DNA of 64,000 nucleotides, taken from NCBI RefSeq assembly GCF_001083785.1, contig NZ_LAVL01000001.1, forward strand, positions 62,001-126,000. Reading direction: 5' to 3'. This document shows positions 35,829 to 50,046 of this stretch, piece after piece. Position 1 is the first letter of the stretch. Every line of letters begins with the position of its first letter. Under the pieces are notes generated by a model. The model was not told the origin of the DNA and did not search any database. It saw nothing but the letters and a program-made list of their open reading frames with translations. The stretch is from Nonomuraea sp. SBT364 (GTDB lineage Bacteria > Actinomycetota > Actinomycetes > Streptosporangiales > Streptosporangiaceae). The position numbers and the translations under genes are program-made.

Positions 35829-37166
35829 ATGCGCATCGCCCACATCACCGACATACATCTCCGAAGCCATATCCCTGGACATCCCACGCTGCCGGTCCGG
35901 CGGAGTCGTACGGCTCCCGAGCTGCTGGCAGCCGCGCTCGACGACGCCCGCCGTCGTGGCGCCGAGCTGATCGTGATCACCGGTGACGTGGTGGACGTGC
36001 CGGGATACCTGTTCGATCCCGAGCGTGACGCCGCCCGGGACGCGCTGGTCTGGCAACGGGTACGAGCGGACTATCGCCTCGTGCGACGGATGCTGGACGA
36101 TTGCGGCCTCGAGTGGATCGCCGTTCCCGGCAACCACGACAGCTATCGCGTCCACGCCGAGGAACTGGGAGCCGGCCCCTTCGTCCGTGACGTCGGCGGG
36201 CTACGCCTCGTCAGCTTCTGGGATCGCGAGTCGACCGGCAATGTGCCTCGTCGCACGCTGACCGAACGGGAGCGGTTCGACTCGTCGTTACTCGACCCGG
36301 GCACACGTCCGCAGGTCCATCTCCAGCACTTCGTCATCACGCCACGGCTGGACGAGGACTACCCGCACACCTACGCGGAAGGTGAAGAGCTCCAGCGGCG
36401 GACCAGCGACTCCGGCCGGGTCGTGCTGTCCCTGTCCGGGCACTACCACCCGGGGGCCGGGCCGACCACGATCGGGCCCACCACCTTCAGTGTCACGCCG
36501 GCACTCGTCGAGCACCCCCACCCGTACCGGATCTTCGACATCGCGCTCGACGGCGGTCGGGGCGAGGCGGTCCGGCACACACAGGTCGATCTCGCAGGTG
36601 ACGCCCCCGCCCGCAAGGCGGTGTTCCTGGATCGGGACGGTTGCATCAACACGCTTCCGACCTACCGGCACGGTCCGGAGGCGATGCAACTGCTGCCGGC
36701 CGCGGCACCCGCGCTCCGGCTCCTGCGTGATCACGGTTACGCCCTGGTGGTCGTGACGAACCAATCCTGCGTCGGCCTCGGCTACGCGGAGCCGGGAACC
36801 CTGGACGAGGTGCACGATCGCATGTCCGAGCTGCTGGCCGACGAGGGCGTCAGCGTGGATGCGATCTACAGCAGTCCGCTGGCCGGGGAGCACGCGATCT
36901 CCGATCGGTACAACCTGGGTGACGCGCCGAAGCCCAGCCCGGCCATGATCAGACGCGCGGCGGCCGAGCTGAACCTCGACCTGTCCAGGAGCTGTCTGAT
37001 CGGCGACCGGTCATCGGACATCGCGGCCGCGCAGGCCGCCGGCGTTCGGCCGATCCTGGTTCGCACCGGCGACGGGCGGGCCACGGAGCAGTCCTGGGGC
37101 GCCGATCCTGTCTGCTCCGTCGCCGACGATCTCGTAGCCGCGGCCGCCGAGGTGGTCGGCGGCTGA
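35829..37166 (+). CDS. Fusion of metallophosphoesterase and HAD-IIIA phosphatase
   Basis: 445 residues. Residues 1-~255 are a calcineurin-like phosphoesterase with motifs TDIH, TGDVVD, GNHDS and GHYH, giving a dinuclear metal site. Residues ~262-445 are an HAD-IIIA (GmhB/histidinol-phosphatase-like) domain with nucleophile Asp268 and acid Asp270 (FLDRDGCIN), then VTNQS, KPSP and GDRSSD. The ATG at 35829 follows AGGAGAAG. Two unrelated phosphatases in one chain, co-oriented with the LacI gene, suggest removal of two phosphates from a sugar or nucleotide-sugar intermediate. Substrate unknown. Confidence 0.88.
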   Translation: MRIAHITDIHLRSHIPGHPTLPVRRSRTAPELLAAALDDARRRGAELIVITGDVVDVPGYLFDPERDAARDALVWQRVRADYRLVRRMLDDCGLEWIAVPGNHDSYRVHAEELGAGPFVRDVGGLRLVSFWDRESTGNVPRRTLTERERFDSSLLDPGTRPQVHLQHFVITPRLDEDYPHTYAEGEELQRRTSDSGRVVLSLSGHYHPGAGPTTIGPTTFSVTPALVEHPHPYRIFDIALDGGRGEAVRHTQVDLAGDAPARKAVFLDRDGCINTLPTYRHGPEAMQLLPAAAPALRLLRDHGYALVVVTNQSCVGLGYAEPGTLDEVHDRMSELLADEGVSVDAIYSSPLAGEHAISDRYNLGDAPKPSPAMIRRAAAELNLDLSRSCLIGDRSSDIAAAQAAGVRPILVRTGDGRATEQSWGADPVCSVADDLVAAAAEVVGG

Positions 37167-37201: not shown

Positions 37202-38512
37202 TCACTCCCGCGTCTGTACGGCGAGGACACCGGCCAGCAGCGTGTCGTCGTGCTCGGCCGGCACCGAACGCAGGTCGAGCAGGCATCGGTCGTTCTCCAC
37301 GCGGGCGAGGACGGGCGGCTCCGCCCGGCGTAGCGCGGCGGCCATCCGCCTGTCCAGCGCCACGGCGGCGCTCGGCAGGGACACCCCGGGCGCCCCGCCG
37401 CCGCCGACCACGCTCCGGCTGCCGACGGCCTCGGCGTCGATCCCCTTGTCACGCATCCGCGCCGCCAGGCTCTCGGCGCGGGACCTCAGCGTCTCCTGAT
37501 CGGCGTGCAGGCTCTCCCAGGTCGGGGTGCGCGGGCCGGCGACGGTGGCCTCCAGAGCCGCCAACGTGACCTTGTCCACCCGAAGCGCACGTGCGAGGGG
37601 ATGGCGACGCAGCCGGTCCACGAGGTCGGCGCGGCCGAACAGCAGTCCGCATTGAGGGCCGCCGAGTAGTTTGTCCCCGCTGGTGGTGACGAGGTCCGCA
37701 CCGTCGTTCAACCAGCTCGTGACGTCGGGCTCGCGGGGCAGCAGCGGCTCGGGACTCAGCAGTCCCGACCCGGCATCGCCGACGAGAGGGACGTCACGCT
37801 CACGGCACAGCGCCGACAAACGCGCCACCGAGACGTCATCCGTGAACCCCTCGATCCGGTAGTTGGAAGGGTGCACCTTCAACACCATGCCTGTCCGCGG
37901 CCCGATCGCGTCGGCGTAGTCGGCGATGGCGGTGCGATTGGTCATGCCGACCTCCCGCAGCCGCGCCCCCGTGGAGACGAGCAGGTCGGGCAGCCGGAAA
38001 CCGTCACCGATCTCGATGAGCTCGCCGCGGCTGATCACGATCTCGCCTCCCGCCGCCAGCGCGGTGGCCGCCAGCGCGAGCGCGGCGGCGTTGTTGTTCA
38101 CCACGTGAACCGCCTCGGCGGAGGGCACCGCGGCGGCCAGCGCGGCCAGCGCGGTACGTCCCCGGCGGCCACGGCCACCCGTGTCGAGGTCGAGCTCGAC
38201 GTCGGTGACCCCGGCGGCCAGCTCCACTGCCTGGCGGGCGGCGGCCGAGAGCGGAGCGCGGCCCAGATTGGTGTGGAGCAGCACGCCGGTGGCGTTGATC
38301 ACCGGGCGGAGGCCGGAAGCGGAGGCGGGCAGCGCCGCCAGCACGGCGGTCAGCACTTCCTTCGGTGGGAGGTCTCCCTCTCTGGCACGCCGCTGCGCCG
38401 CGACGATCGCGGCCTTGACCTGCGCGTGGCCGAGCCGCCGCCGCGCCTCGGCCAGCCGGGGGTCGGCGAGCAACGTGTCCGTGCGCGGGATGGTCCGACG
38501 ATGGTCTGCCAC
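37202..38512 (-). CDS. selA: L-seryl-tRNA(Sec) selenium transferase
   Basis: 436 residues, normal length. This PLP enzyme converts seryl-tRNA(Sec) to selenocysteyl-tRNA(Sec) using selenophosphate. PLP Lys281 is present in TTSGDKLLGGPQCG, and the family segments RPVINATGVLLHTNLGRAPL and MVLKVHPSNYRIEGF are intact. GTG 38510-38512. It is divergent from selD across a 170 bp region. With selD, tRNA-Sec and selB the pathway is complete in this window. Confidence 0.97.
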   Translation of the reverse strand: MADHRRTIPRTDTLLADPRLAEARRRLGHAQVKAAIVAAQRRAREGDLPPKEVLTAVLAALPASASGLRPVINATGVLLHTNLGRAPLSAAARQAVELAAGVTDVELDLDTGGRGRRGRTALAALAAAVPSAEAVHVVNNNAAALALAATALAAGGEIVISRGELIEIGDGFRLPDLLVSTGARLREVGMTNRTAIADYADAIGPRTGMVLKVHPSNYRIEGFTDDVSVARLSALCRERDVPLVGDAGSGLLSPEPLLPREPDVTSWLNDGADLVTTSGDKLLGGPQCGLLFGRADLVDRLRRHPLARALRVDKVTLAALEATVAGPRTPTWESLHADQETLRSRAESLAARMRDKGIDAEAVGSRSVVGGGGAPGVSLPSAAVALDRRMAAALRRAEPPVLARVENDRCLLDLRSVPAEHDDTLLAGVLAVQTRE

Positions 38513-38581: not shown

Positions 38582-38691
38582 TATGATCATGGGCCTTCGG
38601 CGGCATAGAGGGTCACCGGCCGTCGCGGAGCCCCGGCGGGGAAGGGGGATCGACCATGACAGGCCCTTCGCCGCCCTAAAGTATGATCATG
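38582..38691. repeat. TATGATCATG repeated exactly 100 bp apart in the selA-selD intergenic region
   Basis: The 10-mer TATGATCATG, with palindromic core ATGATCAT, occurs at 38582-38591 and 38682-38691. The second copy contains the selD start codon. Between them, GGCCTTCGGCGG and GGCCCTTCGCCGC form a second imperfect pair. A regulatory role is possible but unproven. Confidence 0.4.
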
Positions 38692-39681
38692 AAAAGGCTC
38701 ACACAGTATGCCCAGGGCGGCGGCTGCGCCTGCAAGATCCCCGCGGAAGACCTGGAACTGCTCCTGGGCGGGTCGGAGATGCCTTTCCCGCGAACTTCCG
38801 AAGCTGAGCTCCTGGTGGGGCTGGAATCCGGCGACGACGCCGCCGTGGTCCGCACACAGGACGGAACCGTGATCATCAGCACGGCCGACTTCTTCACCCC
38901 GGTGGTCGACGACCCCTACGACTGGGGCCGGATCGCCGCGGCCAACGCCCTCTCCGACGTCTACGCCATGGGCGGGCGTCCTGTGGTCGCGCTCAACCTG
39001 CTGTGCTGGCCTCCCGACCGCTTGCCGTACGAGCTGGCCTCCGAGGTGCTGCGGGGCGGCGCGGAGGTGGCCTCGCGGGCCGGATGTCATCTGGCCGGCG
39101 GGCACAGCGTCATCGACGCCGAACCCAAGTACGGGCTGGCCGTCACCGGCATCGCCGACCCCGGCCGGCTGCTCCGGAACGACACCGGCCGCCCCGGCCT
39201 GCCGCTGTCCCTGACCAAGCCGCTCGGCCTGGGAGTGCTCAACAATCGGCACAAGAGCACCGGTGAGATGTTCCCGCATGCCGTGGAGACCATGACGCGG
39301 CTCAACGCGGACGCCTCACGCGAAGCCCTGGCCGCCGGGATACGGTGCGCCACCGACGTCACCGGTTTCGGCCTGCTGGGCCACCTGCACAAACTCGCCC
39401 GCGCCTCCGGTGTCACCGCCGTGATCAACGCCTCGGCCGTTCCGATGCTGGACGGCGCGGCGCGGGCCGTACAGGAAGGGTTCGTCCCGGGGGGCTCCCG
39501 GCGCAATCTCGACTGGGTGGCTCCCCACCTCGACCGCGGCGACGTCCCGGAGGAGACCTTGCTGCTCCTCGCCGACGCTCAGACCTCCGGGGGCCTGCTC
39601 GTCGCCGGGGAGATCCCCGGCGCCCCGGTGATCGGTGAGCTCGTCGCGCACACCGGGCACACCGTGGTCGTCCGCCGCTGA
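38683..39681 (+). CDS. selD: Selenide, water dikinase (selenophosphate synthetase)
   Basis: 332 residues. It makes selenophosphate from selenide and ATP. The active-site loop is GGGCACKIP with Cys15 and Lys18, matching Cys17/Lys20 of E. coli SelD, so this enzyme uses cysteine rather than selenocysteine. ATP-binding GDDAAVV and the C-terminal ADAQTSGGLL segment are intact. ATG 38683 (or 38689) has no clear ribosome site. tRNA-Sec and selB follow in the same direction. Confidence 0.97.
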   Translation: MIMKRLTQYAQGGGCACKIPAEDLELLLGGSEMPFPRTSEAELLVGLESGDDAAVVRTQDGTVIISTADFFTPVVDDPYDWGRIAAANALSDVYAMGGRPVVALNLLCWPPDRLPYELASEVLRGGAEVASRAGCHLAGGHSVIDAEPKYGLAVTGIADPGRLLRNDTGRPGLPLSLTKPLGLGVLNNRHKSTGEMFPHAVETMTRLNADASREALAAGIRCATDVTGFGLLGHLHKLARASGVTAVINASAVPMLDGAARAVQEGFVPGGSRRNLDWVAPHLDRGDVPEETLLLLADAQTSGGLLVAGEIPGAPVIGELVAHTGHTVVVRR

Positions 39682-39765: not shown

Positions 39766-39858
39766 GGAGGCGTTTGGGAGTCTGGTGACCCTCCTGGTCT
39801 TCAAAACCAGTGGCGCCGAGCATCTCGGCGCGGCGGGTTCGATTCCCGTCCGCCTCCG
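39766..39858 (+). tRNA. selC: tRNA-Sec (anticodon TCA)
   Basis: Bases 39766-39772 (GGAGGCG) pair with 39851-39857 (CGCCTCC), giving a long acceptor stem with discriminator G. The anticodon loop CTTCAAA holds TCA at 39801-39803 on a CTGGT/ACCAG stem. The long variable arm GCGCCGAG (39813-39820) / CTCGGCGC (39824-39831) has eight pairs. The T arm contains GGGTTCGATTCCC. TCA reads UGA, and the large variable arm and extended acceptor are diagnostic of tRNA-Sec. The eighth acceptor pair (T-C) appears mismatched. CCA is not encoded. Confidence 0.96.
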
Positions 39859-39933
39859 CTGATCAGCCGAATCGGGGAATCGTTTGCGAGTGGATCGACG
39901 CAGACCCGGGCCGACGGCCGCCGTGGAGCGCGT

Positions 39934-41670
39934 GTGCACGTGATCGCGACCGCCGGTCACGTGGACCACGGCAAGTCGACGCTGGTCCGGGCGCTGACCG
40001 GCATGGAGCCCGACCGCTGGGCCGAGGAGCGCCGCCGCGGCATGACGATCGACCTCGGGTTCGCCTGGACGACGCTGGGGTCGGGTGAGCGGATCGCGTT
40101 CGTCGACGTCCCCGGGCACGAGCGGTTCGTCACCAACATGCTGGCCGGCGTGGGGCCGTGCCCGGCGGCGATGATCGTCGTGGCCGCCGACCAGGGCTGG
40201 CAGGCCCAGTCGGCCGAGCACCTGGCCGCGCTCGACGCCCTGGGCGTACGGCACGGCCTCGCGGTCGTCACCCGGGCCGACCTCGCGGACCCCGAGCCCG
40301 CCCTGAAGCAGGTGCACGGCCACCTCCGGGAGACCGGCCTGGCGGGGATCGACGTCGTGGTCGCCAGCGGCCGGACCCGGCAGGGGCTCGACGAACTGGA
40401 GGCCGCCCTGGCCCGGCTCGCCGCCACGCTTGCCGAACCGGACGCCGAAGCTGCCGTCCGGTTGTGGATCGACCGGGTGTTCACCATCACGGGGGCCGGG
40501 ACCGTCGTCACGGGAACGCTGACCGGAGGGACGCTCCGCGTCGGCGACGAACTGGAGGCGGACGGTAACCGGGTCAGGATCCGGGGGCTCCAGACACTCG
40601 GCGAGAAGGCGGACCAGGTCTCCGCGACCGCCCGCGTCGCCGTCAACCTCCGGGGCGCCGAGCGCGACGACCTGTCTCGCGGCATGGCGCTGGTGACGCC
40701 GAAAGCCTGGATGCCGGCCCACGTCATCGACGTACGGCTGAGTCCCGCCGCGAGTCCTCCCGGGGGGACGGCGATTCTCCACCTGGGATCGGCGGCCGTT
40801 CCCGTCAGGATCCGCCCGCTGGGCGCGGACACCGCCAGGGTCACCCTCAGCCGCCCCCTGCCCCTCAGGACGGGAGACCGGGGCCTGCTCCGCGACCCCG
40901 GCAGGCGGGAGATCGTCGCCGGGCTGCGCGTGCTGGACGTCCGTCCCGCCCCGTTACGGCGCCGGGGTGCCGCGGCGGCCAGGGCGGCGGCGCTCGACGA
41001 GGTGTCCCTGCCGGACTCCGCGGCCCTGCTGCGCTGGCACGGCCTGCTGACGGGAAGCGAGCTCAGGGCGATGGGCTGCCCTCCCGGCACGGCGCCGGTG
41101 ACGGGCGACTGGTACGCCGACCCCGGATACTGGTCGTCGCTGTCGCGCCGTCTGGCCGGCCACGTCTCACGACGGCCCCCGCTCGATCCGGGGATCACCG
41201 TGGACGCCGCTGCCCAACTGCTCGGGCTGCCCGATCGGCGGCTGGCCGAGGCACTGGTCGCACCGCCGCTGGTGATCGAGGGCGGGCGGATCCTGCCCGC
41301 CGGCCGATCGCTGCCTCCCGCCATCGCCAGGGCGGTCTCGGAGCTGGCCGCCGACCTCGCCGAACGCCCCTTCGACGCGCCCACCGCCGAACGCCTGGAC
41401 GAACTCGGCCTCACGGGCAAGGCGCTCGCGGCCGCGCTCCGTACGGGCGCGGTGATGTCGATCGGCAAGAACGTCGTGCTCCTGCCCGACGCGCTGGACA
41501 AGGCCGCCGGCGCGCTCGCAGGACTTCCCTCACCTTTCACCGTCAGCGACGCGCGGGTCGCCCTGGCCACCAGCCGGCGCGTCGCCCTGCCTGTCTTGGA
41601 GTGTCTCGATGTCCGGGGAATCACCCAGCGTGTCGACAATGACCGGCGAGTGTTCCGCGCGCGCGGCTGA
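39934..41670 (+). CDS. selB: Selenocysteine-specific elongation factor
   Basis: 578 residues. An EF-Tu-like GTPase begins at once (ATAGHVDHGKSTLVRAL, DVPGHERFVTNMLAG). Beta-barrel domains and C-terminal winged helices (to VDNDRRVFRARG) follow, which bind the SECIS hairpin. GTG 39934 has GGAG five bases upstream. It lies 75 bases after tRNA-Sec and overlaps the rhodanese gene by 61 bases. It delivers Sec-tRNA to UGA codons, so the genome must encode selenoproteins; two candidates lie 3-6 kb downstream. Confidence 0.97.
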   Translation: MHVIATAGHVDHGKSTLVRALTGMEPDRWAEERRRGMTIDLGFAWTTLGSGERIAFVDVPGHERFVTNMLAGVGPCPAAMIVVAADQGWQAQSAEHLAALDALGVRHGLAVVTRADLADPEPALKQVHGHLRETGLAGIDVVVASGRTRQGLDELEAALARLAATLAEPDAEAAVRLWIDRVFTITGAGTVVTGTLTGGTLRVGDELEADGNRVRIRGLQTLGEKADQVSATARVAVNLRGAERDDLSRGMALVTPKAWMPAHVIDVRLSPAASPPGGTAILHLGSAAVPVRIRPLGADTARVTLSRPLPLRTGDRGLLRDPGRREIVAGLRVLDVRPAPLRRRGAAAARAAALDEVSLPDSAALLRWHGLLTGSELRAMGCPPGTAPVTGDWYADPGYWSSLSRRLAGHVSRRPPLDPGITVDAAAQLLGLPDRRLAEALVAPPLVIEGGRILPAGRSLPPAIARAVSELAADLAERPFDAPTAERLDELGLTGKALAAALRTGAVMSIGKNVVLLPDALDKAAGALAGLPSPFTVSDARVALATSRRVALPVLECLDVRGITQRVDNDRRVFRARG

Positions 41671-42076
41671 GGTCGACCGGCTGCTGGCCAAGGCTCGCAC
41701 GGGACTCCCGCGCCTGCGGCCCGTGGAGGCGTGGGCCGCCGCGGGCCGTGGCGCGAGGATCGTCGACACCCGGCCCGAGCATCAGCGCAGGGCCGCGGGC
41801 GAGATCGCCGGAGCCGTCGTGGTCGAACGCAATCACCTGGAGTGGCGGCTCGATCCCACCTGCGGGTCCCGCATCCCCGAGGCGGACTCCCCCCACATCG
41901 AGTGGATCGTGATCTGCGCCGAGGGGTATTCATCCTCGCTGGCCGCGGCGGCGCTGCGGGAGCTCGGGTTGTACAACGCCACCGATGTCATCGGCGGCTT
42001 CGACGCCTGGGTGGAGGCCGGGCTGCCGACGGTCCACCCGGCCCGGCCCACGGCTCCGCGCGGGCCGGGAGAGTGA
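41609..42076 (+). CDS. Rhodanese-like protein of the sel locus
   Basis: 155 residues. A rhodanese domain with probable catalytic Cys103 in VICAEGYSSSLAAAAL. ATG 41609 with GGAG upstream overlaps the selB 3' end; ATG 41639 is an alternative lacking a ribosome site. Fusion-like placement in the sel operon suggests handling of sulfur or selenium as persulfide/perselenide. The loop CAEGYSS fits the C-x4-5 rhodanese active site. Role inferred from context. Confidence 0.88.
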   Translation: MSGESPSVSTMTGECSARAAEVDRLLAKARTGLPRLRPVEAWAAAGRGARIVDTRPEHQRRAAGEIAGAVVVERNHLEWRLDPTCGSRIPEADSPHIEWIVICAEGYSSSLAAAALRELGLYNATDVIGGFDAWVEAGLPTVHPARPTAPRGPGE

Positions 42077-42521: not shown

Positions 42522-42868
42522 GACAAAGAAACCTTTCGGGTTCATCCACAGTGGGGGCGGTGGGCGACGTGCCGGTGTGCGTCTGTGCTGGCGCTCGTCA
42601 GGCCGGGTCGCCGGGCTGAGGTGAGCGTAGCCGAGTTGATCTCTGTTCGGTAGAGGGGTGAAGGGTCGTGTCAGAGCGCGACGCGAGCCTCCTGACCGCG
42701 AGGGCGGCACAACTCACAGAAGATCCATTGTTCGGCGACGCCTCCTATGTTTAACTGTTGATCAGTACCTCGGCTCGCCGAGCCCGTGGGGCCCTCGACT
42801 TCACCTATCGATTAATTCCTGTGCCGCACCATGGCATATCCGATTAGCGAAAAGCCGAGCGGAGTCGT
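42522..42868. other. 347-bp intergenic region before redox module A
   Basis: Lies between the divergently transcribed SapA-like gene and module A. It is more AT-rich than its surroundings (for example CTATGTTTAACTGTTGATC and CTATCGATTAATTCC near 42745-42815), so it should hold the promoter of module A. No convincing coding frame, RNA gene or operator palindrome seen. Confidence 0.5.
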
Positions 42869-43390
42869 ATGAACACAGTGCAACAAGGCCAACCGATCGG
42901 AACCCTCCGGGTCCGCCGTGCGCGAAAGCTCACGGAATTGACCACCCGGCTGAACGCGGACACCGCGGAGCCCGTGACCACCGTCGTCACCAGATACGCC
43001 CCCGAATTACTCCTCCAGATACAGGTCGCCGCGCCGGCCCTGGCGGACGTGCTCAAGACCTGGCACGCAGAGACGCCGCAGAAGACCAAGACCGTCACCC
43101 GCGCGCAGAACTCGGCGGCGCCCCCCGAGGTGGACCGCTACGCGAGCCCCGGGGCCTCCTACCGGGCCGGCGACGTGGTCCTGTGCACCGGACCCGACGG
43201 GGAGTTGCCGGCCGACCCGCAGCTCGCCGTCTTCCTCACCGACGTCGCCGGCATCCAGCCCGAGGCGCCGGTCGTCGGCCACATCGACGATCTCACCACG
43301 CTCCGCCGGGTCGCCGAGGTCGTCGCGGCGCAACCGGCGGCCGACGAACTGCTCACCACGCAGGTCACCACGACCCTCGTCGTCCTCTGA
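42869..43390 (+). CDS. Hypothetical protein, first gene of redox module A
   Basis: 173 residues, acidic toward the C-terminus, no signal peptide or membrane helix. It starts at ATG 42869 with GGAG five bases upstream. Helical N-terminal half (LRVRRARKLTELTTRLNADT, TRYAPELLLQIQVAAPALAD) and a C-terminal alpha/beta part. One Cys only (VVLCTGP). Its position at the head of module A corresponds to the 48970-49650 gene in module B, though the two proteins are not evidently homologous. Unknown function. Confidence 0.7.
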   Translation: MNTVQQGQPIGTLRVRRARKLTELTTRLNADTAEPVTTVVTRYAPELLLQIQVAAPALADVLKTWHAETPQKTKTVTRAQNSAAPPEVDRYASPGASYRAGDVVLCTGPDGELPADPQLAVFLTDVAGIQPEAPVVGHIDDLTTLRRVAEVVAAQPAADELLTTQVTTTLVVL

Positions 43391-43401: not shown

Positions 43402-43953
43402 ATGACCTCTTATCTGCTCGCCGTGCTGGCGTGCGCCCCGCTGGTCGCCTCCACCCTCGCCAAGAGCTGGGACTGGGTGTGGGGTGAACGCCCCCGCGGC
43501 ATCCTGTCCGCGCCCGTCGACCACACGCTGACCGTCGTACAGGCGCTGGCCTGCCTCGCCTTCGTCCTGTCGGGCACGCCCGCCGCCCTGTACGCGATCT
43601 CCGGTCTGTACGCGGTGATGGGCCTCGCCGTCCTGTGGCTGCGGGCACGGCGCGGCCGGGCCGACTGCGGATGCTGGGGCCGGTCCCGGTCGGGGCGGCT
43701 CGGATTCCCCCTCGGTTTCGCCAACCTGGCTCTCGCCGCGTACGCGGGCGGCGTGGCCTACACCGCCGCGGCCTCCCCCGGCCTGGCGGCGCGGGTCTTC
43801 GTCTTCGGCGCGGTGGCGATCGTGCTCTTCCACACAATGGTGATCATGCCCGTCTACCGGCCCGTCCTGCGGACGTACCGGCTGCGGGCCGACCGCTATC
43901 GGCCATGGTTCCAGGGCTTTCCCGACCTGAGACCCGCCGACGGCGACGCGTGA
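43402..43953 (+). CDS. MauE-like redox membrane protein (module A)
   Basis: 183 residues with about five membrane helices. The cytoplasm-edge motif ADCGCWG supplies the CxC pair typical of MauE/DoxX-like redox proteins, which in methylamine-utilisation loci are needed to form disulfides in the small subunit. ATG 43402 follows the preceding stop by 11 bases. The counterpart in module B is at 46717-47250 with VPCGCLDE. Confidence 0.82.
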   Translation: MTSYLLAVLACAPLVASTLAKSWDWVWGERPRGILSAPVDHTLTVVQALACLAFVLSGTPAALYAISGLYAVMGLAVLWLRARRGRADCGCWGRSRSGRLGFPLGFANLALAAYAGGVAYTAAASPGLAARVFVFGAVAIVLFHTMVIMPVYRPVLRTYRLRADRYRPWFQGFPDLRPADGDA

Positions 43954-43969: not shown

Positions 43970-44548
43970 ATGTCGACCCTGGGCATAGTGATCGTCGCGG
44001 TCTGCCTGATCGTGACCGCCGTGAACCTGATCCTCACCGCGGTGCTGTTCCGGCAGCTCGGGCTGATGGTCATGGGCAGCGCCAGAGGCGCCGACGACAG
44101 CGGCATCTCCATCGGCAGGAAGCTGCCGGCACTCGACCTGATCGACGCGCGTACCGGCGCCACGGTGAACGTCCACGACCAACGGCGAGCCCAGCTCGTC
44201 TTCTTCGGGTCCACCACCTGCCACGAGTGCGCGGAGATCTACCCGGACATCCGATACCTCGAAGACCACTACGACCTGCGAGTCGTCAACTTCCTGTTCG
44301 GCTCGGACCTCGCGGACGTCGTCAGCTACGCGGGCGAGCGCGGGATCAAGGGGCCCGTCGTCGTGGCGACGGAGGACCTGGCCACGACGTTCGACGTCGA
44401 GGTCAGCCCCTTCGCGTTCGTCGTCGACCAGCGCGGGCTCATCGTCTCGAAGGGGCTGCTCAACAGCCGCGGACGACTCATCGACATGCTCGCCCCGGTC
44501 CAGGGGGTCGACTTCGACAAGGAGACGGTAAGTGAAAACGTCGCGTGA
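43970..44548 (+). CDS. MauD/TlpA-like membrane-anchored thioredoxin (module A)
   Basis: 192 residues. One N-terminal membrane helix (IVIVAVCLIVTAVNLILTAV) anchors an extracytoplasmic thioredoxin fold with CHEC (Cys84 and Cys87) in FFGSTTCHECAEIYP and a cis-Pro segment VSPFAFVVD. MauD-type proteins pass electrons or disulfides to exported cysteine-rich subunits. The stop overlaps the next GTG start by 17 bases. The module B partner is at 48459. Confidence 0.88.
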   Translation: MSTLGIVIVAVCLIVTAVNLILTAVLFRQLGLMVMGSARGADDSGISIGRKLPALDLIDARTGATVNVHDQRRAQLVFFGSTTCHECAEIYPDIRYLEDHYDLRVVNFLFGSDLADVVSYAGERGIKGPVVVATEDLATTFDVEVSPFAFVVDQRGLIVSKGLLNSRGRLIDMLAPVQGVDFDKETVSENVA

Positions 44549-44936
44549 CGAGAAGTTCCAGCTGGGGGCCGGGAAGGCCACCAGACGGATCGGCCGGCGC
44601 AAGTTCCTCGGCAAGTCGGGAGCCGTGGCGGCGGCCGTGGCCAGCATCGTCATGGGGGTGAACGCGCGCCCCGCCTTCGCCCACGGCACCTGCTACCCGC
44701 CGTACGGCCGGTACTGCTCGGGGTGCGGCGCGAGCTCCTCCTGCCCCAGCGGCAAGGTCACCTGTACGCCCAGCTACGACCGCGGCTGCAACGTCTGCCC
44801 GTACAGCACCGGCTGGTGGTACACCGGCACCAGCCCGAACCGGCACAGGTGCCGGGACTGCATCTCCAACATCTACGGCCCCATCGCCTGTAACGGCACT
44901 TATGTCTGCGGCTGCAAGTCGACGACCCACTACTGA
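44532..44936 (+). CDS. Tat-exported 12-cysteine protein (module A), MADH light-chain-like
   Basis: 134 residues. GTG 44532 follows AAGGAG. Tat motif GRRKFLGKSG (Arg22-Arg23), hydrophobic core, cleavage after PAFA near residue 50. The ~85-residue mature protein has 12 Cys, enough for six disulfides, the number found in methylamine dehydrogenase light chain. Local patterns (SCPSGKVTC, YDRGCNVC, RHRCRDC, CNGTYVCGC) recall that family, but the two Trp that form TTQ are not in the expected places; Tyr occupies them. A likely client of the module's disulfide relay. Homology is tentative. Confidence 0.75.
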   Translation: MKTSRDEKFQLGAGKATRRIGRRKFLGKSGAVAAAVASIVMGVNARPAFAHGTCYPPYGRYCSGCGASSSCPSGKVTCTPSYDRGCNVCPYSTGWWYTGTSPNRHRCRDCISNIYGPIACNGTYVCGCKSTTHY

Positions 44937-44963: not shown

Positions 44964-45599
44964 ATGACGTATTTCACGATTCTTCTCGCCGGTGTCGCCG
45001 GAATTCTCTCCTTCGCCACCGCTTGAGGAATGAACGCGGCCGGCACGCTGTACGCGTCGCCACGTAACACCATTCCCCGATTCGTCGGCGGATTGGCCAT
45101 CGGTTCCGGAATGCTAGCCGTCGTGGTCGTTTCTCTTTCCGCCCTGTCGTGGCTGCTGCCGCTGGATCACGGCACGCGGAATGTGGCATTGGCCGTCGTT
45201 CTCGGCGCCTTCACGTTCAGCGAATGGGTGGGCGGCTTCCACCGGAGGATGTCTTTCCGGTGGCTGGTCCCGACCGAGTTCGTCAACATGAACAACGCCG
45301 ACGCGGTGACGCGGTGGGGAAGGGCTCTCGGCTTCGGGTTCCTGACCGACGCCCCGTACGGGGTGTTTCATGTCGCCCTGGCCATTCCGATGGTGCTCGG
45401 GGACGTGTTCCTCGCTCTCGTGACGGTCCTGGCGTTCGTGAGCGCGCGGGCGGTCCCGTACCTGGTGGCGCCGATCGGCCGTAACGCGGCGGAGATCAGC
45501 GACTTCGCGATCCGGGGACGAAGTGTGATCTTCCAGGCGGCGCGGGTGCTGTCGCTCGCCGCTGTGTCCGTGGCGTTCGTCCGGGTGCTGATGGCATGA
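44964..45599 (+). CDS. Putative selenocysteine-containing membrane protein (module A)
   Basis: 211 residues if TGA 45024-45026 (codon 21) is read as Sec. ATG 44964 has GGAAAGG at 44952-44958. Codons 1-20 encode a hydrophobic helix (TYFTILLAGVAGILSFATA) ending at the TGA, and the same frame then runs to TGA 45597-45599. A conventional start at ATG 45030 would lose that helix and the good ribosome site. About five to six helices in all and no Cys, so Sec would be the only chalcogen redox residue. Homologous to 47251-47964 with TGA aligned (UGMNAA against USLNSA). Possible MauF/CcdA-like role. The main alternative is a nonsense mutation. Confidence 0.72.
45034..45057 (+). promoter_or_regulatory. 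Candidate SECIS hairpin, module A
   Basis: Starting eight bases after the TGA, ACGCG (45034-45038) pairs with CGCGT (45053-45057). The 14-base loop can form a short inner CGG/CTG stem (with a G-U pair) capped by CACG, and opens with G. Loop centre ~20 bases from the UGA, in the range known for bacterial SECIS elements. High-GC DNA forms such hairpins easily, so this is supporting evidence only. Confidence 0.4.
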
Positions 45600-46156
45600 G
45601 CAAGCCGGCGCCGATGAAGGCCGTGGTGGCCGCCGTGGTGGCCGCCATGGTGGCCACCTCGGCCCTCGCCGGCTGTGCCTCCGGCCAGGCCCCTACGCCG
45701 GCGGCCCTGCCCTCCGTCGCCCCGGGGGGTGACTGCCCGGTCACCCGTGCCGTGACGCGGCCGACAGCGCGCGGCGGCGACACGCTCGGGGAGGGCCCGG
45801 CCCGGCCGGTCATGGGGCCCGTGCTGGAGTACACGGCGGCCGAGCCCGGCACGCTGTTCGCGGACAGCGGCTGGGGCGGCGCGAAGGTGCTCTGGTTCGC
45901 CGCGCCCGGCCTGCGCGACCCCGTCGTCATCAAGGGACGGCGGCTGGACGGCGACAGTCCCGTCGCGTTCGACGGCACGCAGGGAGAGCCGCTCAAGAAC
46001 GAGATCGTCATCCCGCCCGACCCGGTGGCCGGGGACTGGCGCGACCGTCCCAGCTACGTCCGGTTGAAGGCGCCCGGCTGTTACGCCTTCCAGGTCGACA
46101 CCCCGGACAGTTCCACCGTCCTGGTCTTCGAGGCCGTCGGCGCCACCGTGTCCTGA
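45596..46156 (+). CDS. Lipoprotein of module A, unknown function
   Basis: 186 residues. Lipoprotein signal with lipobox LAGC (Cys27). The mature part has two further Cys (GDCPVT, PGCYAFQVD) and a beta-rich C-terminal domain (WRDRPSYVRLKAPGCYAFQV) like small ligand-binding lipoproteins. ATG 45596 overlaps the previous stop (ATGA). It ends 11 bases from the convergent module B lipoprotein gene. Function unknown. Confidence 0.78.
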   Translation: MSKPAPMKAVVAAVVAAMVATSALAGCASGQAPTPAALPSVAPGGDCPVTRAVTRPTARGGDTLGEGPARPVMGPVLEYTAAEPGTLFADSGWGGAKVLWFAAPGLRDPVVIKGRRLDGDSPVAFDGTQGEPLKNEIVIPPDPVAGDWRDRPSYVRLKAPGCYAFQVDTPDSSTVLVFEAVGATVS

Positions 46157-46167
46157 ACCCGCGTCTG

Positions 46168-46686
46168 CTACGACGACAGGCCGTCCAGATGGAGGCGCGC
46201 GGTCTCCGCGAACGACCGGAGCTGCTCGTCGGAGACGGTGCCGCCGAGGACGCCGCCGAGGACGACGAACCTGTCCTTCGACATCGCCGCCACCTCCAAC
46301 TCGCCGTCGTGGCGCGCGACGTTCTTGGGGCCGGCCATCGAGTCGACACTGCCGACCGCGCCGCATTCCGCGTAGAAGCGCTTGAACGCGTCCATGGCGT
46401 CCACGTCCTCCACCACGACCTGCGTCACCATGGCCCCGTCCGCCGCGGTGAAGGACCGCCACTGGACCGGGGCCGCCACCGGCGCGATGTCGCGGTTCCC
46501 GCAGGGCACCAGATCCGCGTCCAGGTCGCGCCAGGTCCCGTGCGAGGTGCCCGCCACCGTCCAGGTGCGGCCGTCCTTGAGCTGGTCCGGGCTCAGGAGC
46601 GGCGACGGAGGATCGGCCTTCTGCGCCGTCGCCGCGCCGCAGGCGGTGCACAGCAGCACGGCGATGATCGCGATCGTGCGGTTCAT
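46168..46686 (-). CDS. Lipoprotein/sensor-like protein of module B
   Basis: 172 residues. A short signal ends in CTAC (lipobox Cys16). The mature domain (DGRTWTVAGTSHGTWRDLD ... VVVLGG-type strands) resembles the extracytoplasmic PknH-like sensor fold, with two Cys (LVPCGN, AECGAV) that could pair. ATG 46684-46686. Last gene of module B, equivalent in position to the module A lipoprotein. Confidence 0.75.
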   Translation of the reverse strand: MNRTIAIIAVLLCTACGAATAQKADPPSPLLSPDQLKDGRTWTVAGTSHGTWRDLDADLVPCGNRDIAPVAAPVQWRSFTAADGAMVTQVVVEDVDAMDAFKRFYAECGAVGSVDSMAGPKNVARHDGELEVAAMSKDRFVVLGGVLGGTVSDEQLRSFAETARLHLDGLSS

Positions 46687-46716
46687 GTCTCGTCCTCCCG
46701 GGGGTCGTCGGAATGG

Positions 46717-47250
46717 TTACTGCCCGTGGACCGCGGAGGTTCCCCGGAGGTCGGCCACCTTGCCCGCGACGACCAGGAACCCCGCCATGAAGGCGGCCAG
46801 CCCGCAGGCGGCCAGCCGCGCGCCCGTCTCGGCCGGTATCGGCGGCCAGCCGGCCGTGAGCGGCGCCGTCGCCAGAGCCAGCAGCACGGCGCGGCCGACC
46901 TTGACCGGTGACGCCGGGCTGGTCTCGTCCAGGCATCCGCACGGCACCCTGCCCTTACGCCGCAGCAGGACGGCCAGGTAGCCGGCCAGCGCCAGATACC
47001 AGAGCGCCACCGCGAAGGCGGCGAACCGCAGCAGCACCGCTTCCCCGCTCACCCAACCGGCCAGTACGGCGGCACCGGCCAGGCCCTCGGCGGGGCCGAT
47101 CAGCGGCGCGAGCCGTACCGAGAACGCGGGAAGCAGGCCGTGCGCTTCGATCACCGCCGTCAGGTCGCCGCGGCGGCTCACCGCGGCGACCACCAGCAGC
47201 ACCGCGCCCGTCAGCGCGAAGCAGGCGGGAAGCGTGTCATAGACGGTCAT
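46717..47250 (-). CDS. MauE-like redox membrane protein (module B)
   Basis: 177 residues, four to five membrane helices and the motif VPCGCLDE, the CxC pair shared with the module A protein and with MauE. ATG 47248-47250 directly abuts the TAA stop of the preceding membrane-protein gene (TAAATG), so they are translationally coupled. It probably exchanges electrons with the module's thioredoxin-like protein across the membrane. Confidence 0.82.
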   Translation of the reverse strand: MTVYDTLPACFALTGAVLLVVAAVSRRGDLTAVIEAHGLLPAFSVRLAPLIGPAEGLAGAAVLAGWVSGEAVLLRFAAFAVALWYLALAGYLAVLLRRKGRVPCGCLDETSPASPVKVGRAVLLALATAPLTAGWPPIPAETGARLAACGLAAFMAGFLVVAGKVADLRGTSAVHGQ

Positions 47251-47964
47251 TTACCACCAGATGAGCGCGAGAGACAGCAGGAACCCGGTGGCGCACAGGC
47301 GACCCACCCAGGCCGTCGAGGCCAGCAACCTCGTGTCCCACCGGCGCGGATCGCCGCTGAGCGCACGGGAGAGCGGCATGAGCGTCCTGCCCACGCCGAA
47401 GCCCAGCCCGGCCAGCAAGCCCGGCCCCAGTCCCCCGGCCAGCACGATGACCAGGACGAGCAGCTGAGGCAACGCCGTCGGGGTGAAGGTACGCACGCCC
47501 GTGCCCATCTCGAAGCCGAACTGCAGGGGCCCCGCGAAGTCCGCGCGAGGGATGACGTCCTGCGGCACGAGCCGGCGGTTCTGCGGCAGCGACAGCGGCC
47601 GCCCGGCCAGTTCGAACAGCATGACGACGGCGACGACCGGCGTGAGCGTCCACAACCGCACCGCTTCCGGGATGATCGAGGCCAGCCCGCCGAGCGCCCC
47701 GGTGATGAGCCCGGCCAGCAGCGCGCCGAGCATGAGTCCGGTGCTGAACACCGGCAACTTGCCTCGCCAGACCGACGAGGTCAGCAGGTCCGCTGAGTTG
47801 AGGCTTCAAACGGAGCCGGACAGCGAGAACCCGGCCGTCACCCCCATCAGCGTCCAGGCGAGCAGGGCGAACGACGGGGTCCAGACCTGGTGAGCGGCCA
47901 CCACCAGGGCCGTGCTCAGCGCGATGCCGAGCGCGACCCGGGTGGCGGCGAAGGTGTTGCCCAT
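47251..47964 (-). CDS. Putative selenocysteine-containing membrane protein (module B)
   Basis: 237 residues if TGA at 47806-47808 (codon 53) is read as Sec. ATG 47962-47964 lies seven bases after the stop of the cysteine-rich gene, with AGGACAGG before it. Coding sense is strong on both sides: helices VALGIALSTALVVAAHQV and LLAWTLMGVTAGFSLSGSV precede the TGA, and SLNSADLLTSSVWRGKLPVF follows. The only other in-frame starts downstream are weak (TTG 47757). About six helices. Aligns with 44964-45599, including LVP and LGFGF/LQFGF blocks. Sec plus one Cys. A nonsense mutation is the main alternative. Confidence 0.72.
47781..47796 (-). promoter_or_regulatory. Candidate SECIS hairpin, module B
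   Basis: Reading down the minus strand, nine bases after the TGA, TCAGC (47796-47792) pairs with GCTGA (47785-47781) around the six-base loop GGACCT. The loop opens with GG and its centre is ~17-18 bases from the UGA, both as in known bacterial SECIS elements. An alternative fold uses GCCTC/GAGGC further out. Confidence 0.45.
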
Positions 47965-47970
47965 CCTGTC

Positions 47971-48462
47971 CTACAGAGCCCAGGAGCAGATGTAGAAGGT
48001 GGTTCCGCCGCAGGTGGCGACGTTTCCGTCGGCACAGCGGTAGCTCCTGCCGCTGTGCGTCCACCGCCAGGCGTTCCTGTCGGCCAGGCTGCCCGCACCG
48101 CACGCCTTGATCGCGTAGCTGTTGTAGCAGGTGCCGGAGGAGCGCAGGAACCAGCCGTCGGAGCCGCAGTAGCTCCTGGAGTAGGGGGCGCCCACGCAGA
48201 CCTTGGTGTTGTTGTTGTAGCCGGAGTAGTTCCCGTAGCCGGCGCAGTTGGTGTACTCGCTGCCCACCGCGGCCTGGGCGCTGTTGTTCCTGCCCGGCAG
48301 GGCGGACAGCACGTTCAGGGCCAAGGCGCCGCCCAGCACACCGATGCTCTTGAAGACGGTCCGGCGAGAGGGAGCCGGCCGTGACGGGCGGCGCCCGCCG
48401 GTGTCGGGCTCGTCCTCCACGGAAGGCACGTCGGCCCAGTAACGGTCGACATCGACTGTCAT
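47971..48462 (-). CDS. Tat-exported eight-cysteine protein (module B)
   Basis: 163 residues. ATG 48460-48462 overlaps the thioredoxin stop (ATGA) and follows GAGAGG. A long acidic N-region precedes the Tat motif SRRTVFKSIG and cleavage near AQAA. The ~95-residue mature protein is rich in Tyr, Gly and Asn with eight Cys and several Trp. Its C-terminal part (WRWTHSGRSYRCADG, CGGTTFYICSW) parallels the module A protein (WWYTGTSPNRHRCRDC, CNGTYVCGC), so the two are probably homologous clients of the two relays. Confidence 0.75.
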   Translation of the reverse strand: MTVDVDRYWADVPSVEDEPDTGGRRPSRPAPSRRTVFKSIGVLGGALALNVLSALPGRNNSAQAAVGSEYTNCAGYGNYSGYNNNTKVCVGAPYSRSYCGSDGWFLRSSGTCYNSYAIKACGAGSLADRNAWRWTHSGRSYRCADGNVATCGGTTFYICSWAL

Positions 48463-48965
48463 GCGCTTAACCTCTCTGAGGGGCTGATGGCGAGGAAGGC
48501 GTCGAGGTCGTCGTCGGAGCCGACGACCCTGCGCCATTCCTCTGTCCCGTCGGCGGAATACTTGACCAGCGTCGGGGTCGCCCCGACGGCGACCGTGCCG
48601 AGAAGCGCCGCGTCGATGACGGGCTCGACCTGACTATCGGCCACCCACTCGGCGCAACGGTCGGCGGAGGCCAGCAGCACGGCGTGCCCGGCCAGGCCGG
48701 GCCCGGCCACGGCGGCGAGGCGCCGCGACCGCTCCTGGCAGTTGGGGCAGCGCTCGGACACCACCAGGACGAACGTGGGCAGGCCGTCCTCGGAACCGAA
48801 CCTGGCCACCGATCTGACCGCGGGCGCCGCGGGAGCGGCCGCCTGCGCCTGCAACAGCTTTGCCTGCAGCTCGCGAATCATGTTCAGCAGCGCGGCGAAG
48901 GCGAACAACAGCAGCACCGTCCCCAGGAAGGACAGAACCGCCAGCGAATCCAGGAACGCCCTCAT
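48459..48965 (-). CDS. Membrane-anchored thioredoxin-fold protein (module B)
   Basis: 168 residues. One N-terminal membrane helix (LSFLGTVLLLFAFAALLNMI), a short coiled-coil-like Ala/Gln linker, then a thioredoxin fold with CPNC in VVSERCPNCQERS and cis-Pro region GATPTLVKY. Equivalent to MauD in methylamine loci and to 43970 in module A. ATG 48963-48965, four bases after the preceding stop. Confidence 0.85.
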   Translation of the reverse strand: MRAFLDSLAVLSFLGTVLLLFAFAALLNMIRELQAKLLQAQAAAPAAPAVRSVARFGSEDGLPTFVLVVSERCPNCQERSRRLAAVAGPGLAGHAVLLASADRCAEWVADSQVEPVIDAALLGTVAVGATPTLVKYSADGTEEWRRVVGSDDDLDAFLAISPSERLSA

Positions 48966-48969
48966 CGTG

Positions 48970-49650
48970 CTAGCTCAGCCTGCACGAGATGGACTCGACG
49001 ACGTCGATGAATCGCGCGTCGTCCGGGCGGGCGGCGACGACCGTCGTCGCCGCGGTGTCGTTGACCATGAAGACCGAGCGGGTCTGCACGCCGCCGGCCT
49101 CGTTCCGCTCGTCGACACGCCACATCGCGCCACCGCGCACGCGCTTGCCCGACGAGCGGGGGATCGACTCCGACGCCTCCGCGACCGGCTTGACCTGGAC
49201 GTTGCAGACCTGGTCGATGGTGTTGACCGCCAGCAGGTTGCCGAGCGTCAGGCCCGAACCCGCCCTCGGCAACATGGTCAGGCCCTCGGGGGTGTCCTGG
49301 ATGTCGAACTTGGCCAGGAGGTCCATGAACGTCTCGAAGGGCACACCCGTGCCGTTGAAGAAGGTGGCGACCTCGTTGTGCGGTCCCACCCACACCATGT
49401 TGGTGGTGCCGTGCTCCGGGTCCTCCATGGACAGGATGCGGCCGCCGTTCCACTGGGCCTCACGCACGGTGAAACGCGACCAGTCGCCCAGTTCCTTGGA
49501 GACGACCTCGGCGGATCCCGCCGGTGTGACCTGGAAGCGGGTGCCCCCGGTGGGGCCGTGCGCCCAGATGAGATAGGCCCAGCCGCCGATGAAAGGCTGG
49601 GAATTGCCGTCGACGACGAGACTCTGTCCGTTCGGTGCACGCACTTGCAT
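48970..49650 (-). CDS. Hypothetical protein, first gene of module B
   Basis: 226 residues from ATG 49648-49650 (GGAAGG seven bases before). No signal peptide or membrane helix. The N-terminal half is beta-rich with many Trp and Gly (QPFIGGWAYLIWAHGPTGGT, NMVWVGPHNEVATFFNG). Two Cys (QVCNVQV, ISCRLS). It occupies the same leading position as the 42869 gene in module A. Large-subunit or chaperone roles are conceivable but unsupported. Confidence 0.75.
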   Translation of the reverse strand: MQVRAPNGQSLVVDGNSQPFIGGWAYLIWAHGPTGGTRFQVTPAGSAEVVSKELGDWSRFTVREAQWNGGRILSMEDPEHGTTNMVWVGPHNEVATFFNGTGVPFETFMDLLAKFDIQDTPEGLTMLPRAGSGLTLGNLLAVNTIDQVCNVQVKPVAEASESIPRSSGKRVRGGAMWRVDERNEAGGVQTRSVFMVNDTAATTVVAARPDDARFIDVVESISCRLS

Positions 49651-50046
49651 GTCGTTGCCTTCCGCGGGGGGAGCGGGCACGCCAAAATGGCGCCTACCTG
49701 GGGCTTTGTGTTGGGAGAAGGGTGTACGCGCCGGACGACTCGCCTGGCACCATCAAGATCGATCGGAATATCTCACGGCGCCCTACAAACGGTCAAGATC
49801 TTGCTCAAGTGGTGGATCGGGGGTAATTTCCGGACATGTGATTGAGGCGAAAACGGGCTTCGGCGGCGGCGCCGAGCGAGAAGCTGGGCGTCCCAGGATC
49901 CAGGAGTCCCCGGTCAGGGTGTAGCCGCGAACTCCTGGACCGCCGCCCGGTGGCATTCCGCCGGGCTTCGCCCCCAGAGCTCCTGACCTGATCGCCGCCA
50001 CCAATGAGGACGGTGACCTCAACCGCGGTCACCCGCGGCCACACCG
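49651..50046. other. 396-bp intergenic region after the broken kinase and before module B
   Basis: Contains the module B promoter region near 49690-49850 (AT-richer, for example CGGAATATCTCACGG). I see no convincing coding frame, RNA gene or repeat in it. Confidence 0.5.

Follow-up and report, generated by a model that had tools for sequence, protein, structure and literature searches.

Two Membrane Protein Genes with an In-Frame UGA

The window analysed here, a stretch of 64,000 nucleotides (nt) from the actinomycete Nonomuraea sp. SBT364 (contig NZ_LAVL01000001.1, positions 62,001–126,000), carries two genes for membrane proteins, designated here U-proteins A and B, each of which has a frame that is open on both sides of a single internal TGA. 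The genes for the selenocysteine (Sec) machinery, selA, selD, tRNA-Sec and selB, lie 3–9 kb from them (table 1). The initial annotation had reported both frames, placed their TGAs at the same aligned codon, held independent nonsense mutations there to be improbable, and proposed a conserved Sec. The two proteins are strongly diverged, and pairwise BLAST of A against B gives only a weak match (E 0.24). The equivalence of the two codons holds on three other comparisons: a profile–profile alignment of the A and B families (95.7% probability, E 9.5e-9), in which C21 of A faces C53 of B; a phmmer search of A against a single target, the B-type relative L152 from another genome of the genus, which places U on U (domain E 2.3e-10); and joint alignments of the B type, the A type and a deeper clade described below, all eight of which bring the U columns together (four MAFFT modes, with U either written as C or masked as X, and with 19 deep TGA and 2 deep TGC sequences included).

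A third gene of this kind, of the B type and also with a TGA, was found elsewhere in the same genome (L153, C111:198000–214000; TGA at L153:8511–8509). Its cluster is complete, comprising protein X, MauE, a thioredoxin-like protein, a Cys-rich protein and the U-protein, and the loop past its UGA is GGUCU as in B.

Conservation of the UGA Codon

Six-frame searches covering 200 genomes of the order (up to 30 loci each) and a pattern scan over 84,980 species genomes supplied copies of the genes; the scan contributed the best 80 of 95 confirmed loci. The aligned codon is TGA in all 112 copies that span it (109 of the B type and 3 of the A type, the window's two included); these correspond to 97 distinct proteins, as the two sources overlap. 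The other 2 of the 114 alignments (L025 and L055) represent one and the same N-terminally truncated copy, which begins past the codon. Among the 54 matches in the 200 genomes of the order, 53 hold one TGA and the remaining one is a truncated copy. Protein identity to the window protein reaches down to about 36%, and the carriers include Nonomuraea, Herbidospora, Actinoplanes, Micromonospora, Streptomyces, Amycolatopsis, Pseudonocardia, Nocardioides and one metagenome-assembled genome of the Acidimicrobiales. In 62 diverse B-type sequences the codon sits in a motif SGSx-U-[ST]xNS, with S49, G50, S51, U53, N56 and S57 invariant. The A type is rarer: its loci carry TGA in 4 of 4 cases (L007, which is the window's own, L008, L009 and L150), and L150 is the one other A-type gene among 54 genomes of the genus.

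In public protein records, the family match starts past the codon in 225 of 226 records among the matches listed (including 120 of 350 matches from one search); this is what gene callers would leave of a gene with an internal UGA. The same records would also fit a genuine stop, with the loci being pseudogenes or encoding a short peptide and a separately initiated downstream protein, and the copies that lack the upstream part (L025 and L055, identical in sequence) point the same way. Against such a stop, neither TAA nor TAG was ever found at the codon, in these 112 copies or in the 22 deep copies described below, and the flanking residues are conserved on both sides of it; furthermore, as detailed in the following sections, Cys replaces the codon in some distant relatives, the presence of the family tracks tRNA-Sec, and the hairpin of B is maintained by synonymous compensation. 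We consider termination at this codon to be very improbable, and its identity in 112 of 112 spanning copies lies far beyond chance, as had been argued from the two window genes.

The truncated B copy, from which the part holding the UGA is gone, occurs in genome G185 (L025) and in Nonomuraea sp. SYSU D8015 (L055). Three tRNA-Sec matches over the cut-off are present in G185, and the truncated copy lies about 1.6 kb from one of these.

Putative Cys/Sec Exchange in a Deep Clade and Codistribution with tRNA-Sec

When 396 genomes from across the phylum were searched with a profile, 35 gave matches, the genome of the window included, and a deep clade of relatives emerged. Profile comparison of the B type with this clade (hhalign) gives E 2e-20, covering only the part past the codon. 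The codon could be read in 27 of the 29 loci beyond the own genome and is TGA in 22 and TGC in 5, mostly within a motif [WFY]xP-U/C-G. Left out of this count, with the codon cut off, masked or without a locus, were G507 (L121), G466 (L129, masked), G245, G420, G486, G508 and G388.

The exchange follows the Sec machinery, which was detected in 22 of 22 deep TGA genomes (21 by tRNA-Sec at E 1e-9, one by SelB) versus 1 of 5 TGC genomes (Fisher, 2.8e-4; for tRNA-Sec alone, 21/22 versus 1/5, 1.4e-3). The 22nd TGA genome, G348, is 87% complete and has a weak tRNA match (51 bits) together with a SelB of 284.8 bits, over the cut-off; besides this genome, SelB was tested in nine. Four of the five TGC genomes have neither tRNA-Sec nor SelB at the thresholds used. 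Two of them, G254 and G333, gave tRNA-Sec matches just above the Rfam cut-off in a permissive search (49.7 and 48.7 bits) and were counted as lacking it, because these fail E 1e-9 and SelB is below its cut-off.

A corresponding codistribution was observed within the order, where tRNA-Sec occurs in 105 of 200 genomes and the B family in 48, all of them among the 105, whereas none of the 95 genomes without tRNA-Sec encodes it (Fisher 5e-17, uncorrected for kinship; the carriers belong to 16 genera and the genomes are not independent). The initial annotation had expected homologues to show Cys or TGA at the codon, and TGA only beside sel genes, and this is what the sampled genomes display, apart from one metagenome protein, P0023, which spans the codon with a W and is the sole exception in the 226 records.

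This W could be taken to favour decoding of the UGA as another residue, be it Trp, some other near-cognate readthrough or a reassigned code. The residue fits a gene call made with TGA as W, or it may reflect a genuine TGG. The genetic code is not simply changed in the window, given that TGA ends 9 of the 14 genes examined there; Cys was found in all five non-TGA deep copies that were read, and the link to tRNA-Sec and SelB likewise speaks for Sec, so that insertion of a different residue appears more improbable still than a genuine stop.

Of 15 formate-dehydrogenase-like matches in the genome of the window, none exceeds the family cut-off and none has an in-frame TGA, and SelD there has no in-frame UGA; no search for other known selenoprotein families was made. 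It has been remarked that some Sec-using organisms seem to have no known selenoprotein genes (PMC5029168), and the UGA-free SelD and formate-dehydrogenase-like genes here fit this remark. In the genomes G050, G185, G147, G165 and G183 of the genus, tRNA-Sec genes scoring over the Rfam cut-off number two or three per genome.

Hairpins Downstream of the UGA

Bacterial Sec insertion sequence (SECIS) elements are described as hairpins shortly past the UGA, with a G in the first loop positions and a spacing of 16–37 nt (PMC13188914). The hairpin of B conforms to this description in its GGUCU loop and its spacing, and covaries among relatives. Across 76 distinct B-type sequences, the fixed positions form seven pairs in 22, six in 50 and fewer in 4 (in three sequences the hairpin is, by our reading, displaced by one codon), and GGUCU loops account for 52 and AGGUU loops for 15. 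One signal is synonymous and links residue 10 past U with the Arg codon four residues on: Ala (GCG) at residue 10 goes with CGC in 23 of 23 sequences, and Ser (TCG) with CGG or CGA in 49 of 50, so that the third base of the Arg codon tracks its pairing partner. These positions are paired in 72 of 73 B-type sequences, versus a mean of 41 and a maximum of 56 in 5000 permutations. Of 57 Val codons that contribute the loop, 53 are GTC, versus 38% elsewhere in the same genes.

In a set of 37 spread B-type sequences, the covariation score lies above all 500 shuffles and above every slid version, and pair 31/45 is UA in 15, UG in 13, GC in 8 and another combination in 1. A covariance model, built from relatives up to 94% protein-identical, finds the hairpin in B (47808–47755, 70.9 bits, E 2.8e-22), and the third copy in the genome has, by our reading, U-A in place of the outer C-G pair of B. 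The alifold energy for the eight closest B relatives equals that of shuffles and is hence uninformative.

The same covariance model gives only a noise-level match in A (45024–45064, 5.7 bits, E 3.2). A has a candidate hairpin, different from that of B and less well supported: in a 30-nt window, a stem with a UGUAC or UGUAU loop 22 nt past the UGA was found in 4 of 4 A-type loci and in their consensus. In the deep clade, folded one by one, the 22 TGA copies form a hairpin at the corresponding place with an energy of -10.7 kcal/mol or lower, and the five TGC copies reach -4.5 to -10.1 kcal/mol; a hairpin proposed by RNAalifold for 21 deep TGA copies was rejected, as shuffles equal it. Compared with control positions, the sequence past the UGA has lower fold energies in B (45 of 83 copies sampled, p 3e-4) and in deep TGA copies (p 0.009), and no lower ones in A (n=2) or in deep TGC copies (n=5).

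Several observations weigh against decoding as Sec or against the structures just described. One TGC genome, G299, has both tRNA-Sec and SelB. More than half of the tRNA-Sec genomes of the order (57 of 105) are without the B family, which is thus not the sole use of Sec there. The outermost pair of the B hairpin is open in 19 of the 37 sequences and changes on both sides occur in only one pair; two of five covariation measures are no better than shuffles, and relatedness inflates such counts. An automatic scan by the published criteria returns no hairpin for the window's A, because longer A windows fold otherwise. The TGC copy L125 retains a similar, shorter hairpin, and 4 of 5 TGC copies pass the generic SECIS criteria; these are weak in high-GC DNA, being passed by 81 of 83 B copies and also by 70% of control positions, for which reason we did not take them as evidence.

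It should be noted that these points stand beside a codon that is invariant in near and medium relatives, exchanged for Cys in distant ones, linked to the machinery and, in B, followed by a covarying hairpin; judged from these sequence comparisons, the UGA in both genes is very likely decoded as Sec, and the conserved Sec first proposed from the two window genes alone has gained strong support.

Gene Neighborhood of the U-Proteins

The features of the window are listed in table 1. The genes on either side of A and B form two clusters of similar content on opposite strands: cluster 1, on the plus strand, has the order MauE-like, MauD-like, Cys-rich, A, and cluster 2, on the minus strand, the order X, thioredoxin-like, Cys-rich, B, MauE.

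Table 1. Features of the window around U-proteins A and B, with positions in the window
Feature	Position	Strand	Evidence and remarks
selA, L-seryl-tRNA(Sec) selenium transferase	37202..38512	-	NCBIfam TIGR00474, 444.1 bits (cut-off 267.9)
selD, selenide water dikinase	38683..39681	+	NCBIfam TIGR00476, 380.8 bits (cut-off 125); single stop, no in-frame UGA
tRNA-Sec, anticodon UCA	39766..39859	+	ARAGORN; Rfam RF01852, 78.4 bits, E 1.9e-14
selB, selenocysteine-specific elongation factor	39940..41670	+	NCBIfam TIGR00475, 284.4 bits (cut-off 242.25); start codon chosen by us, start approximate
MauE-like membrane protein, cluster 1	43402..43953	+	Pfam PF07291, E 7.3e-5, 23.5 bits, below gathering score 27
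MauD-like thioredoxin-fold protein, CHEC, cluster 1	43970..44548	+	TIGR02661, E 2.9e-11, 43.2 bits, below equivalog cut-off 188.6
Small Cys-rich protein with twin-arginine translocation (Tat) signal, 12 Cys, cluster 1	44532..44936	+	TIGR01409, 17.5 bits (cut-off 16.7)
U-protein A, membrane protein	44964..45599	+	211 codons, ATG start; single internal TGA 45024-45026 (codon 21), predicted Sec
SECIS-like hairpin of A	45042..45061	+	Loop UGUAC 45049-45053, 22 nt past UGA; -10.8 kcal/mol, 30-nt window
MauE, cluster 2	46717..47250	-	Pfam PF07291, E 4.9e-13, 49.9 bits, over gathering score 27
U-protein B, membrane protein	47251..47964	-	237 codons; single internal TGA 47808-47806 (codon 53), predicted Sec
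SECIS-like hairpin of B	47762..47780	-	7 bp, loop GGUCU 47773-47769, 32 nt past UGA
Cys-rich protein (CysR), twin-arginine leader, 8 Cys, WxW motif, cluster 2	47971..48462	-	
Thioredoxin-like protein, CPNC past hydrophobic N-terminus (our reading), cluster 2	48459..48965	-	No Pfam match over cut-off
Protein X, conserved in operon, function not assigned, cluster 2	48970..49680	-	No family over cut-off

Several of these assignments are below family thresholds. Thioredoxin-fold Pfam families match the MauD-like protein, all below cut-off, and no Pfam family over cut-off was found for the 12-Cys protein. The Pfam Tat signal of CysR scores 13.3 of the 22.7 bits required; its alignment shows R33 and R34, five Cys, W132 and W134 as invariants.

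The arrangement of cluster 2 recurs widely. Of 80 loci from species genomes, inspected up to 6 kb to each side, 78 hold a relative of the Cys-rich protein, 76 one of the thioredoxin-like protein and 75 one of X; all three occur together in 74, and MauE in 48. selA is present in 18 of these loci, selD in 22 and selB in 14. Taking the nearest copy per locus, the Cys-rich, thioredoxin-like and X relatives are encoded on the strand of the U-gene wherever found, and they lie wholly upstream of it in 65 of 78, 75 of 76 and 72 of 75 cases, respectively (overlapping ends being counted as not upstream). The association extends to the deep clade: 8 of the 27 loci with a readable codon encode a Cys-rich protein of a single type whose frame stops at the start of the U/C gene or shortly ahead of it. 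Five of these loci have TGA (L138, L140, L143, L145 and L148) and three TGC (L136, L142 and L147). Two of these eight loci hold gene fusions: in L140 the U-protein is joined to MauE (E 2.3e-24; MauE over the Pfam cut-off), and in L136 a single frame (L136:1–1185), upstream of the TGC-form relative, combines the end of a MauE, below cut-off and cut by the locus edge, with thioredoxin-like and Cys-rich exported parts that were assigned by our reading.

Among the other frames of the window, one upstream of the MauE-like gene of cluster 1 (42868–43389, plus strand) has no NCBIfam match and is possibly the counterpart of protein X. A short frame right after selB (41609–42076, plus strand) is rhodanese-like by our reading, and such a frame was also seen beside the truncated B copy (L025 3099–3416, minus strand). 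Beyond selA, a frame at 35829–37166 (plus strand) fuses a calcineurin-like phosphoesterase, read by us in its N-terminal half, to a HAD-type heptose/histidinol phosphatase domain (TIGR01656, over cut-off).

Comparison with Known Systems and Putative Function

The family shares with known selenoproteins the in-frame UGA, a downstream SECIS and the presence of sel genes in the genome. A 2026 inventory lists 119 prokaryotic selenoprotein families and subfamilies (PMC13188914, Table 1), and the motifs SGSxU[ST]xNS, ATAUGMNAAG and WSPUGxSM appear in no entry of that table, in which some entries are given without a motif. Its closest entries are TsoB, a rhodanese/DsbD fusion-like protein which shares a DsbD-like part and differs in its motif (UxxxxU), and YeeE/YedE, also a membrane protein and also different in motif (GUxSG; PMC13188914). 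Searches of Pfam and of NCBIfam release 20, in which the presence of each model named in the inventory was not checked, gave no match over cut-off for A, B or seven deep members, save for the MauE part of the L140 fusion. No related solved structure was returned by a sequence search of the PDB, a match to ataxin-1 (E 0.02) being taken as chance, and no earlier report of the family was found among the titles listed from the open-licence literature, subscription papers not being covered.

A relation to the DsbD/CcdA proteins is suggested by the small multi-helix membrane protein itself, by its thioredoxin-like partner and by weak Pfam matches in the deep clade, where 11 of 21 members match DsbD_2 (best E 2e-6) and 6 of 21 match DsbD_TM (best E 4e-6), with the DsbD-type scores of L122 and L138 below the gathering score. 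The putative redox residue stands next to a Pro where the first hydrophobic segment ends (WSP-U/C-G in most deep members), as in the CcdA motif. Two points speak against this function: in Pfam, DsbD is matched neither by A and B nor by any of 62 B-type members; and the proteins have no counterpart of the second transmembrane Cys found in DsbD/CcdA, with A lacking any Cys. The U-protein thus differs from DsbD/CcdA in its single predicted Sec without a second conserved Cys, and a classical Cys–Cys conduit was excluded on this ground. The U column is the only one with C in at least 15 of the 62 B-type rows, and with the classical membrane Cys pair missing, we propose a membrane redox site of one residue.

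The second parallel is with methylamine utilisation (mau), in which the maturation set of MauE, MauD and the membrane protein MauF acts on the Cys-rich light chain MauA. A MauE over the Pfam cut-off (cluster 2), a MauD-like protein and a small Cys-rich exported protein are likewise clustered here. In contrast to MauA, the Cys-rich protein does not resemble an amine dehydrogenase light chain: no Pfam match to that family was found in 30 Cys-rich members, six deep members or the window proteins. The mau systems are not known to contain selenocysteine. A selenoprotein that is no thiol–disulfide conduit could operate in such a setting, for example with the Sec binding a metal or cofactor, or assisting, in the manner of mau maturation, when the Cys-rich protein acquires a cofactor derived from Trp or Cys. 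The operon with MauE, MauD-like and Cys-rich exported proteins, the latter with invariant Trp residues, would suit such a role, as would a lone Sec without a conserved Cys partner, whereas the missing light-chain match and the DsbD-type matches favour thiol chemistry; we regard the non-conduit role as unlikely, though far less so than the two readings of the UGA that dispense with Sec.

A role of the U-protein in thiol redox chemistry is somewhat favoured over other functions, and is a weaker inference than Sec decoding. Conserved UGA, Cys exchange and the B hairpin, together with the adjacent machinery and the link to tRNA-Sec, suggest that SelB would deliver Sec-tRNA to the in-frame UGA. The single Sec, placed where a hydrophobic segment ends, would then be linked in a mixed selenenylsulfide either to the CxxC of the thioredoxin-like protein or to the CGC of MauE, electrons would cross the membrane, and disulfides of the Cys-rich protein would be made or corrected; the flow could run in either direction. 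As a whole, we interpret the loci as a widespread and apparently undescribed family of membrane selenoproteins that probably act as DsbD/CcdA-like conduits for a Cys-rich exported protein, an explanation to which we assign, from sequence evidence, a probability of roughly 0.82.

Implications for Sec Use in Actinobacteria

If so, the analysis adds a selenoprotein family with three copies in the genome of the window, the B type in 48 of 200 genomes of the order and relatives in deep lineages of the phylum, whose genes are cut at the UGA by current annotation. It would also place a Sec, as predicted, in a transmembrane protein of thiol-redox-like character whose operon is defined. At even odds in our estimation, these genes constitute a Sec-dependent export-redox pathway, in which the lone transmembrane Sec would serve as the electron gate of a system of X, thioredoxin and MauE that matures the secreted Cys-rich protein, and it is this pathway, not formate dehydrogenase or SelD, that would sustain the Sec machinery in such genomes. 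The family would offer a reason why selA, selB, selD and tRNA-Sec are retained in these actinomycetes.

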